Assembly (NCBI GenBank): GCA_025558095.1
Contig: JAIVFI010000036.1
Coordinates: 248,001-312,000 of the forward strand
From: Hyaloraphidium curvatum
Taxonomy: Eukaryota; Monoblepharomycota; Hyaloraphidiomycetes; Hyaloraphidiales; Hyaloraphidiaceae
Direction of reading: 5' to 3'
Length of the DNA: 64,000 nucleotides
The notes under the pieces are model-generated. The model saw nothing but the letters and a program-made list of their open reading frames with translations, did no database searches and had not been told where the DNA came from. Shown here piece by piece: positions 30,596 to 35,688 of the stretch (positions are counted from its first letter, which is position 1; each line of letters begins with the position of its first letter). The position numbers and the translations under genes are program-made.

Positions 30596-31657
30596 ATGAT
30601 AAGAAGCCTTTCGAGGCGCGAATTGCTGGCATTCTGCCTCCTTGCCATCGCCTTGCTGGTCATCCTCCTCCGAACTCCTCGTTTGGCTCGCCCGCTGCGC
30701 TCATCGCTCCATCGGATTCGCCCTTCCTGCAGCCTGTATGCTGGCAAACTTCACCTCAATCACACGCACCCCACGGCCTCTGGCATTCTCCCCGATCCCG
30801 TCTCGGGCTGCCCCCCCCTCCTCGCGCTGTTCCCCGATCTCTCGAAGCCACCGGCTTGGTTCCCCAACAAACGCGTGGTACTCATCGGGGATTCGGTTGC
30901 AAGGAACGCGCTCGTGGATTTCTGCTCCTTTGTCGGCGGAAACTGCTCCGCAACCGAGCTTCGCACCCGCGATTCTGCAGCACGCTGCTCGAGCGCCAAC
31001 GGCGTCGACCGGCTCCCCGGCCGGCCCTACTCATGCCGCCTCCCACAATGGAACCACCAGTGGGACTCTTTTGTTGTTTACGGCCTTACGCCGGAAGACC
31101 GTCTGTGGGTCGACAAACCCGGCGTGGAACAGCCCGCGGGCTTGAGAGGAAGGCTCAAGGTCCTGCGTGAGAGGGAGCGTGGGCTCGCCGCACCGGACAT
31201 GGTGATCATTTCGTCCTTTTTCTGGGACCTTGCGCGGTACCAGCGCCACCAAGTGCTCCACACGGGGAATGACTCGCGCCCAGAACTGTCACCATCTTTC
31301 CTTTCGGCCTGGAGGGCGAATGCTACTGCATTTCTCCTTTCTGTTCGCGAAATCTATCCTCAAGCTACTCGCATCCTCTGGGCGGTCCCGCACGACGTTG
31401 ATCCAGGGGCGTTCCGCACCTTCTCTCTTCCTCTTGGGGCGGCCAAAGACACCATCTCGGCCTTCCATCCCATCCGGACCGCTGCCCTCATCGCTGAGCA
31501 GGAATCATTTGCTCAAGGGCGGGAGTTCCCGTTCGGAAGGCTGGTGAAAGGCCAAGAAAGGTGGCTGACGGATGGGGTTCATCCCGGCGCGGCCGGGAAT
31601 GCGGTGTGGGGTGGGTTAGTCCTGGAAGAGCTGAGGCGCACGGTGGAGGAGCTATAA
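30596..31657 (+). CDS. membrane-anchored SGNH/PC-esterase-like protein (353 aa)
   Basis: Intronless. The short basic N-terminus is followed by one hydrophobic helix (about residues 10-26), giving a type II membrane or Golgi topology. The luminal domain has VVLIGDSVARN with Ser100 in the GDS block and, near the end, LTDGVHPGAAGN with Asp326 and His329. This GDS plus D-x2-H pair is typical of SGNH hydrolases, including the PC-esterase/TBL-like group that adds or removes acetyl groups on glycans. It also has WNHQWDSFVVYG and VIISSFFWDLARY. A Golgi polysaccharide acyl-esterase or transferase role is plausible but inferred. Confidence 0.7.
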   Translation: MIRSLSRRELLAFCLLAIALLVILLRTPRLARPLRSSLHRIRPSCSLYAGKLHLNHTHPTASGILPDPVSGCPPLLALFPDLSKPPAWFPNKRVVLIGDSVARNALVDFCSFVGGNCSATELRTRDSAARCSSANGVDRLPGRPYSCRLPQWNHQWDSFVVYGLTPEDRLWVDKPGVEQPAGLRGRLKVLRERERGLAAPDMVIISSFFWDLARYQRHQVLHTGNDSRPELSPSFLSAWRANATAFLLSVREIYPQATRILWAVPHDVDPGAFRTFSLPLGAAKDTISAFHPIRTAALIAEQESFAQGREFPFGRLVKGQERWLTDGVHPGAAGNAVWGGLVLEELRRTVEEL

Positions 31658-31772: not shown

Positions 31773-34700
31773 TCAGAACGACTCCTTGTAAAAGCGGAAA
31801 GTCGTCGCAGAGCCCTGCTTGCGGTAGTAACCCGTGGCGATCCGGCAGGCCCGCTCGACGTCGCGGGCAAACCCGATCGGGCCGCAGAAGAACACGCCAA
31901 AGTCCGCCCCCGGCGATCCCATCGCCTTCTCCTTCACGATCGCCGGCCAGGACGGCCTGCCCGGGTACAGGTTCCAGCGCCGCCCCACCGCCTCGCGCTT
32001 GTGCGCGTCCCTGTCCGCCGTCAGGAAGACGTTGAGCTCAATCGCCGTCCCGTCGCCGAGGGCCTGCTCCGTCGACTCCATGAGGTCCCTGAAGGCGTCG
32101 AGCTCCTTGCTGTCCCGGCAGACCCAGTAGAACGACACGTTCATGGGGTGCTCGTTGTACCGCCTGCTGATGGAGCGCAGGACCGAGGCAAAAGGGGTGA
32201 CGCCGATGCCCGCGCCGACAAGGATGACGTGCGTAAACTTCCACACGTCCTCTGCCGGCGCCCCGTACGGCCCGTCGATGCGGAGCCGGGGCAGGATGGT
32301 CCGGTACGTCTGCCCCGTGACGGCCGACGGGTCCGCGGCAAAGACGTGCAGCAGGTGGTCCTTGACCTTGGACGCCCAGTCGAACCCCTTGCGCACGCGG
32401 ATGTGCACCGTCATCTCGTCGTCCTCGGGCGCCGACGAGATGGTGAATGGGTGGAACTCAAGCCTGCTGCCCGACACCCAGGGGTCCGCGAGGAAGATGT
32501 ACTGGCCGGGTTTGAAGGCCACCTTGCGCCCGCCCGGGTGCCGCATGCTCAGGCGCAGAACATCGGCCGACACCATGTCCGCCGCGCTGACTTCGACCTC
32601 GACCTCGCGCCGGCGGTACTGGAGCGCCTTCTCCGCAGCCATGAACAGCAGTGGTATCAGCACAAAGGTCCCTGGCGGATGGAGCAAGGTCAGGCGCTGC
32701 AATCGACCGGCGCGGAAAAGAACCCACAGAAGCTCGGCCCGTGGATGAGCAGCACCCCGTACACCGGAATCCAGAGCGTGTGCATGATGAGAAACACCGA
32801 ATAATCGATCCGCAGGCAGCACAGCTTGGTGATGCGCCTGCCAAACAGCGTCCCCACGAGGAGCACGAGCATCAGCAGCGTCACGAGGTGACCCGTGAAC
32901 CCGGCGACGGTCAGCACCGCGGGCTGGACCAGCGGCACGCCGTTCTCCTTCTGCTCCCAGAGCATGTTGAGATAGTGCATCAATATGTGCCCGACTGAGC
33001 CGATGACGATGAGGACGGCGACAAAGATGTGCAGCGAGACCGCGTCCCAGAGCGGGATCACCTCGGCGATCGGGGTGCCGCGGAGGTAGCCGAGCAGGCT
33101 CTTCATGACAGGGAAGAGCAGGAAGGCAAAGTTGAAGTCCAGCGTCTTGCCGAAACCCTTGGCCAAAGGCAGGTAGACCGAGCTGAAGGGTATGAGTGCG
33201 GAGACTGACCAGATGCCGAAGCCGAAGGCCCCAGCGTTGGCGAGCAGGTAGATCAGGGCGATGGTCATCCGGGGCCCGTGCCAGTTCCACCACACGGCCA
33301 CCCGGTCCGCGCATGTTACCCTCCTGTCCTCGCCGAGGTCCCCCCCGCCCTCCTCCGGGTCCGCGGCCGGCGCCGCCTCATCGGGAACCGCGCCGGGAAC
33401 CATCGGAATCGGCACGGGCTTGAGCGGTGGCACGTAGGTCGTATCCATGCCGCCGGCCGGGATTACGGGGTTGTGGCTCCCGCGGTACACGGGCGCCGCC
33501 GTCCCCTGCACACCGCGCACGCTGGATAGCTCCACGGCGCCGGTGGAGGCTTCCAAACCCGCGGATCCGTTGGCGTATCCGTTGGCGTAGGTTTCTTTGG
33601 CCTGAGCCTGCACCGTCCCGTTGGCGGCCGGCTTGTACGCGGCCGCGACGGGCACCGCGGCTGCCTTGGCCGGCATCTTCCACGGCTTGACGTCCGCAAA
33701 CGCCTCGATCTCCAGTTCCTCCTTGCCCTTGCGCGTCATGCATGACGCCACCTTCCCCCCCGGGTTGCGCTTGGCCCACACCGACAGTCCCCACCACGCC
33801 AGCAGCGCCAGCACGATGCACCCCACGGCCGCGATCGCCACCGCGATCCCGATGGTCTGCCAGTCCGTCGCGACGGTCAGCGTGCCCTTCATGTCGCGGT
33901 TGGAGAAGGCGTGGTTGCGCGTGCCGACGAAGTGGTACGTGCCCGTGCGGGTGACCATGAAGGGCGGGAAGTTCTGGTACGCCGAGGCCGCGTTGAGGAA
34001 GTTGCACGACGCGCGGTCGTCCTCCCTGACCGCCGAGAGGTTGCACGGCCCCTGGTTCGCGTAGGCGAAGCGGGCCGCGAGCTCCGCGGTTGGCGCAAAG
34101 TGCGCGGCGGCGCCGCCGGCCACGTTGGCGGGCACCGACAGCCCCCTTGCCGCGATCACGGCGAGGTTGGACCTGTCCGTGCCCGGCAGCCCGTTGCCTT
34201 CGTTGCCCTGGGGGTTGGCGTCCGACCCCGTCCACTGCACGTGCAGCCAGTCCCCCGCGACCAGGTCTAGCCGCGAGGGGACGAAATCGTACTCGACCGA
34301 GGGGTAAACCTGCACGATGTTGCCCCTCCGCCCGCGCACGTTGAGGTTCACGAACCGCGGGCGGCGGAGGGCGCCGCTCCGTGCCACACCCTCGGGCGGG
34401 GCGCGGATCCTGAAGGCGTGCGTGCGGTCCTCGAACACGCGGAAGGTCTGCGAGGTGTCGACGTTGAGCGTGAGCGGGCCCGAGACGCCCTCGCCGTAGC
34501 CGACAAAGTCCCTGCGCGGGTCCGTGGAGAGCGCGCCGTTCTGCGCGGCAAAGGTCGAGTCCCCGGGAAAGTCGGCCGTGGAGACGTTGTACCGGATCCG
34601 GAGCACGCACAGCGCGCCGTCCGCGTGGCCCGAGGGCACGGTCCACGTGTAGGACGGCATGTCACTCGTGCCGTCGGCGGTGCCGAGGTGGTTCGAGCGG

Positions 34701-35688
34701 CCCGAGGGGCAGGCAGTGCACGCCGGCGGCGACTGCGCCCACGCCGAACCGAGGGTCCACTGGCCCCCGCCCGCCGTGCACGCGGTCTCGTTGTTGTACC
34801 GCGGGAGGCTGCATGAACCTTTGGGCTGGATGTTCTGGCTGCCCTGCTGGAGGGCGGGGCAGGCCTGCGAGGCGTCCGAGGCGCAGATCCAGACGTCGCG
34901 CCAGGGGCTAGGGTGCCAGTACGGGAAATAATCCCTGGACACAGCGGGCAATCAGCAACGCAGGCAGCAGCCATCACGATAGGGAACCCACCGCTCCTCG
35001 GCGCACTCGAACCCGTACCGCGTCCCTGCCGGGTTCTGCCGCGTGTACCTCGCCGTGTCGCCCCCCAGCCTCTGGTCCGCCGTGAACAAGCCCCTGTTCC
35101 TCTCCCTCGTCCGGCACGCGTCCCAGAACTCGAACGCCTCGTGCTGCCCGTACCGCAGCTGCGACGGCTCCGCCAGCGCGGCCTCGGGCACCGTCGACGT
35201 GTTCGTGCCGTCCCGCAGGCCGGGCATGCTGTCCTCGCACGCGTACTGCAGCACGATCTTGCTCTCCACATTGGGGTTCCCGGGGCCGGAGCCGTGCTGC
35301 GCGGTCCATTCGATCCGGAGCTCCGAGCCGGCGTAGAACTCCATCGTGCCCTTGCCGGCGCCGGGCAGCGTGGGGTCGTACGAGCCCGTGGCGTTGAGGC
35401 ACGGGCCGGGGCACGCGTCGCCGACCTGGTAGCCGCCGCGGGCGTTGTTCTGGCTGTCGAAGAGGCGGTTCTCGTTGGTCGCCTGCGAATCGGGCGTCGG
35501 GTCAGATGTGGCCCATTCGGGGGGCCCGAGGGACGGACCTGGTTCGACACCTCGTTCAGCTTGTTGTTACTCCCCCGCGGCGAGTGCAGATAGATGTCCC
35601 CCAGGGCGGGAGCGGCGAGCAGGGGCAGGAGGAAGATTGGGATCCAGGCTGCCGCGGCGGAGCCCCTCCTCGCCGCCATGGCCGGCAT
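31773..35688 (-). CDS. DD3-3 ectodomain fused to NADPH oxidase (1248 aa)
   Basis: Exons 35539-35688, 34992-35482, 32728-34934 and 31773-32671. A signal peptide (to about residue 30) is followed by an ectodomain to about 570 that resembles the Dictyostelium DD3-3 protein family: DIYLHSPRGSNNKLNE, ENRLFDSQNNARGGY, ACRTRERNRGLFTADQ, RDYFPYWHPSPWRD, VLRIRYNVSTADFPG. One helix (575-597) and a Pro/Ala-rich cytosolic linker follow. Then a NOX core: FNFAFLLFPVMKSLLGYLRG and bis-heme histidines His849/His863 and His932/His945, spaced 14 and 13 as in gp91phox. HPFTISSAP (1023-1031) binds FAD; GAGIGVTPF (1102-1110), FYWVCRD and FCGP bind NADPH. It should move electrons from NADPH to outside oxygen. There are no EF hands. 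Confidence 0.92.

Follow-up and report, generated by a model that had tools for sequence, protein, structure and literature searches.

A minus-strand gene at 31773-35688 of a 64,000-nucleotide window of the Hyaloraphidium curvatum genome (assembly GCA_025558095.1, contig JAIVFI010000036.1, positions 248,001 to 312,000; positions below are those of the window) very probably encodes, in a single chain, a DD3-3-type ectodomain and an NADPH oxidase (NOX) core. The predicted protein carries, in order, a signal peptide, an ectodomain of about 540 residues, one membrane helix, a cytosolic linker and the full NOX core (Table 1). DUOX is the textbook NOX with an ectodomain; we rate the protein found here as a NOX with a new ectodomain, the peroxidase-like one being already known from DUOX.

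Rebuilt from the raw sequence, the gene comprises four exons and three introns, and the splice 35688-35539 + 35482-34992 + 34934-32728 + 32671-31773 yields a single frame of 1248 residues; the introns, all GT-AG, measure 56, 57 and 56 nt. Both halves of the protein, ectodomain and NOX, meet inside exon 3. This exon of 2207 nt lies within an open reading frame (ORF) of 753 codons (34951-32690) and codes, without any stop codon or intron, for most of the ectodomain as well as for the helix, the linker and the membrane helices of the NOX. The GC content at third codon positions (GC3) is 0.86-0.97 in all 78-codon blocks across the whole protein, including 0.86-0.88 in the linker. Splicing of intron 3 is further backed by homology, HGPSFW-TFVLIP aligning with HGPNFWKWLLVP of NOX5. 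The rebuilt frame and its hydropathy profile agree with an earlier reading made from the letters alone (hereafter the sequence-only reading), which had proposed a spliced gene with this order of parts and a helix at residues 575-597.

The N-terminus of the ectodomain gives a direct clue to its identity. The ascidian DD3-3 homologue HrSMLP1 begins, by Edman sequencing, with DMYMQNPRGXNNRLNEN (PMC6916515). Its best match among the window's 127,900 six-frame positions is DIYLHSPRGSNNKLNEV, which is identical at 10 of the 16 determined positions and scores 61, the next best position scoring 29. This match sits exactly at the predicted mature N-terminus, right after the signal peptide, a placement that also supports Asp31 as the mature start. 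The pattern D-x-Y-x-x-x-P-R-G-x-N-N-x-L-N-E is shared with Dictyostelium DD3-3 and ascidian HrSMLP1, as are the signal peptide, N-glycosylation sites (five sequons here, alongside 14 cysteines) and a single helix after the ectodomain. In contrast, the described members of the family stand alone, without an oxidase (PMC6916515, PMC10022678). Judged by this motif, the ectodomain probably belongs to the DD3-3 family; the DD3-3 assignment of the sequence-only reading is borne out for the N-terminus.

Neither Pfam, NCBIfam nor the PDB, none of which has a DD3-3 model or chain, gave a match to the ectodomain, and no recognisable enzyme family was found in it. It is present as a single copy in the genome. 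Relatives were found neither in phages or plasmids, nor in viral contigs, where two matches proved on reading to be unrelated proteins, nor in 195 genomes of the Archangium phylum, which gave weak, chance-level matches only; in papers, no published DD3-3 peptide strings were found beyond the HrSMLP1 Edman sequence. As a separate observation, a bacterial ORF on a contig of an Archangium metagenome-assembled genome (JAEUJS010000453.1, L012:6962-7294) encodes a signal peptide followed by DVYMQHPRGSNNRLNG, which is the DD3-3 N-terminal motif, and then nothing DD3-3-like. No other genome among the 195 holds an ORF of this type, which may be a contaminant, a mis-assembly or a fragment acquired by transfer.

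The sequence-only reading rightly held that DD3-3 proteins have no assigned biochemical role, but biological roles, namely a contact reaction and aggregation, have been reported (PMC6916515, PMC6208332). In ascidians, an antibody to HrSMLP1 elicits a hemocyte contact reaction, in which phenoloxidase is released as an oxidative defence induced by contact, and variants of HrSMLP1 follow self versus non-self (PMC6916515). According to PMC6208332, a sponge DD3-3 homologue gene is up after a microbial stimulus and, in work cited there, knockout of Dictyostelium DD3-3 leads to faster aggregation and altered cyclic AMP signalling. The Dictyostelium protein (BAD93186.1) is described as passing through the membrane once (PMC10022678). 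Published DD3-3 work thus points to recognition (ascidian allorecognition, slime-mould aggregation) over oxidant use.

For this reason we tentatively favour, at somewhat less than even likelihood, a recognition-gated receptor-oxidase in which a contact receptor is fused to its own oxidase. The sequence itself shows, within one chain, a DD3-3-type glycoprotein domain on the secreted side, a single helix through the membrane, a linker in the cytosol and a complete six-helix NOX core. From what is known of the NOX family, the core would pass electrons from cytosolic NADPH to flavin adenine dinucleotide (FAD), two haems and finally oxygen outside the cell. In the least certain steps, the DD3-3 domain might bind a glycan, a neighbouring cell or prey as its partner and might place or switch on superoxide release at the point of contact. 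With EF-hands absent from the linker, regulation would run via the ectodomain and helix or via cytosolic partners, and not by built-in calcium sensing. The topology is consistent with this arrangement: a signal peptide, an outside domain, one helix, a Lys/Arg-rich start on the inside, and a core with a cytosolic N-terminus.

Two points weigh against the receptor-oxidase. DUOX ectodomains serve maturation and product control, and the ectodomain found here therefore need not be a receptor. Single-sequence AlphaFold predictions of two pieces, the ectodomain with intron 2 read through and exon 1 missing and the ectodomain's last 173 residues, reached a mean predicted local distance difference test score (pLDDT) of 33 and 35.

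The protein has the layout of DUOX: a signal peptide, a large ectodomain, an additional helix ahead of the six-helix core, a cytosolic segment and the NOX core. An animal haem peroxidase-like ectodomain and EF-hands, in contrast, belong to DUOX and are both absent here. The animal haem peroxidase family (PF03098) has no match in the fusion protein at an E-value of 1 and reaches 1e-97 elsewhere in the genome, while Pfam gives no match to an EF-hand in the linker that joins the extra helix to the core. Full kinship with DUOX was consequently rejected, and the sequence-only statement that the plan copies DUOX holds for the layout but not for any kinship beyond it.

Two animal haem peroxidase genes are present in the same genome, at C13:240 kb and C18:73 kb (L029:1779-6268, C13:240-245 kb; L030:1618-6051, C18:73-78 kb). 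Over the two genes together, the peroxidase is followed by DOMON, cytochrome b561, cytochrome b5 and FAD/NAD reductase domains; not every domain scored in both genes. These genes appear to fuse a peroxidase to a DOMON-b561-b5-reductase chain as an alternative peroxidase-plus-electron-chain layout. Similarly to the DD3-3 fusion, they couple an extracellular domain to an electron chain that crosses the membrane and draws on a cytosolic reductase, but peroxidase and DOMON lie outside, and cytochromes b561 and b5 replace the NOX membrane domain. The organism has its peroxidase ectodomain on the b561 chain and DD3-3 on the NOX.

Two other roles for the ectodomain are unlikely. In the first, which would go with the order of parts being the same as in DUOX, a redox or metal-binding ectodomain turns superoxide into hydrogen peroxide or consumes it in acting on a substrate. 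To the eye, its last 150 residues (VEYDFVPSRLDLVAGDWLHVQW ... GTYHFVGTRNHAFSNRDMKGTLTV) are reminiscent of a cupredoxin strand pattern, and TAQHGSG...VLQYACED and CVLRIRYN are reminiscent of copper monooxygenases; neither resemblance has profile support. However, Pfam and the PDB return no match to copper, haem or oxidase families, even for the trimmed piece, the position of the cupredoxin cysteine is a Gly, and the low pLDDT of the structure predictions speaks against this role as well. An N-terminal histidine brace is missing as well: the mature chain begins with Asp, and in the ascidian homologue Gln takes the place of the His at position 5 (PMC6916515). The second role, just as unlikely, is that of a folding or trafficking chaperone: the ectodomain would cap the oxidase on its outer face and be required for it to mature or reach the surface, which has also been proposed of the peroxidase-like domain of DUOX. 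Such a role is in keeping with the position of the ectodomain directly outside the haem-bearing helices, with its N-glycosylation sites, and with p22phox not being found in the genome by a search that is weak for such a protein. NOX1-5 and fungal NOX, however, mature without any ectodomain, as is well established, and the DD3-3 family occurs as free-standing surface proteins.

The six-helix core is complete, its NOX helices starting at about residue 770 by hydropathy. Alignment with NOX2 identifies four haem-ligating histidines, 849/863 and 932/945, at the spacings of 14 and 13 given in the sequence-only reading, and the FAD and NADPH motifs that it had called intact are recovered by Pfam (FAD_binding_8, 1.9e-17; NAD_binding_6, 6.4e-20). 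All four NOX signature residues, as set out by Zhang et al. (PMC3591440), are present in this alignment (His849, His867, Thr894 and Gly895). Relatives with a solved structure in the PDB are NOX2 (2e-45 over the core), NOX5 and DUOX1. Haem histidines, His-119, Thr-178, Gly-179 and both the FAD and NADPH domains are common to this core and those of NOX2/NOX1-4 and NOX5, which differ in being without an ectodomain; NOX5 also has EF-hands, absent in the linker here. Throughout the genome, FAD_binding_8 matches only at this gene, and the other NADPH-domain matches, as far as they were read out, belong to ferric or b561-linked reductases; the gene is the only putative NOX that the family search found in the genome.

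A ferric-reductase core with a metal-handling ectodomain is very improbable: FAD and NADPH domains are common to ferric reductases, of which the genome has others, but the His-119 equivalent and the Thr-Gly pair, lacking in FRE, are both present, the PDB neighbours are all NOX or DUOX enzymes, and at least one reductase of the genome (L005, C2:82 kb) carries Ser in place of the His-119 equivalent. We note that two ferric-reductase-like genes on two contigs of the same genome, L006 (C34:554 kb) and L007 (C46:157 kb), are identical, through recent duplication or as unmerged haplotypes in the assembly. About as improbable is an annotation artefact or a pair of neighbouring genes, DD3-3 and NOX, transcribed separately: an internal start within the linker is possible, but the junction lies in one uninterrupted frame with unbroken coding composition, and no stop codon stands between the halves, so that the upstream gene could not end.

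Table 1. Predicted features of the DD3-3/NOX fusion gene (window positions).
Feature	Position	Strand	Basis
Exon 1 (residues 1-50)	35539..35688	-	splice model
Intron 1, 56 nt, GT-AG	35483..35538	-	splice model
Exon 2	34992..35482	-	splice model
Intron 2, 57 nt, GT-AG, in-frame TGA inside	34935..34991	-	splice model
Exon 3, unbroken through ectodomain, helix, linker and NOX membrane helices	32728..34934	-	open frame, GC3
Intron 3, 56 nt, GT-AG, stop codon if retained	32672..32727	-	splice model; NOX5 alignment fits boundaries
Exon 4, including stop codon	31773..32671	-	splice model
Signal peptide, residues 1-30	35599..35688	-	hydropathy peak 1.98 at 11-29; Asp31 = ascidian Edman start
DD3-3-type ectodomain (introns 1 and 2 included), about residues 31-570	33866..35598	-	N-terminal motif compared with Edman sequence
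Extra membrane helix, residues 575-597	33785..33853	-	hydropathy peak 2.87 at 575-593; Lys/Arg-rich cytosolic start next
Low-complexity cytosolic linker without EF-hand, residues 598-764	33284..33784	-	hydropathy, Pfam, GC3
NOX core, residues 765-1248	31776..33283	-	Pfam, PDB relatives, NOX2 alignment
Third transmembrane helix (TM3) histidines 849, 863, 867 (NOX2 His-101, His-115, His-119)	32975..33031	-	NOX2 alignment; signature in PMC3591440
Thr894-Gly895 (NOX2 Thr-178, Gly-179)	32891..32896	-	NOX2 alignment; signature in PMC3591440
TM5 haem histidines 932, 945 (NOX2 His-209, His-222)	32741..32782	-	NOX2 alignment
FAD-binding domain (PF08022)	32253..32597	-	Pfam
NADPH-binding domain (PF08030)	31845..32237	-	Pfam

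Next to the oxidase gene, a plus-strand ORF of 353 aa (30596-31657) with GDSVARNALVDFC and DGVHP motifs resembles a PC-esterase/SGNH-type protein; it lies tail to tail with the oxidase gene and ends near the 3' end of that gene. No match to a light-harvesting protein was found in the genome, and the organism is therefore probably not photosynthetic.

No paper naming DD3-3 together with NADPH oxidase was found among the 5.39 million non-subscription papers searched, in line with the sequence-only remark that no DD3-3/NOX fusion had been described; the NOX-superfamily domain survey PMC3591440, in the sections consulted, likewise makes no mention of a DD3-3 ectodomain. Since eukaryotic protein databases lay outside the search, the architecture may already stand unremarked in InterPro.

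It is a doubtful but possible extension that the protein represents a new NOX class, in which a DD3-3 recognition ectodomain would directly gate or target superoxide release as the first molecular output of DD3-3, and that oxidases adopted ectodomains other than peroxidase-like ones too. A second, unrelated ectodomain on the DUOX layout would show that this layout is a general solution. For the DD3-3 family, the fusion would provide a testable partner; as fusions predict functional partnership, stand-alone animal DD3-3 proteins may work next to NOX, and cell-surface recognition may be wired directly to the oxidative burst.
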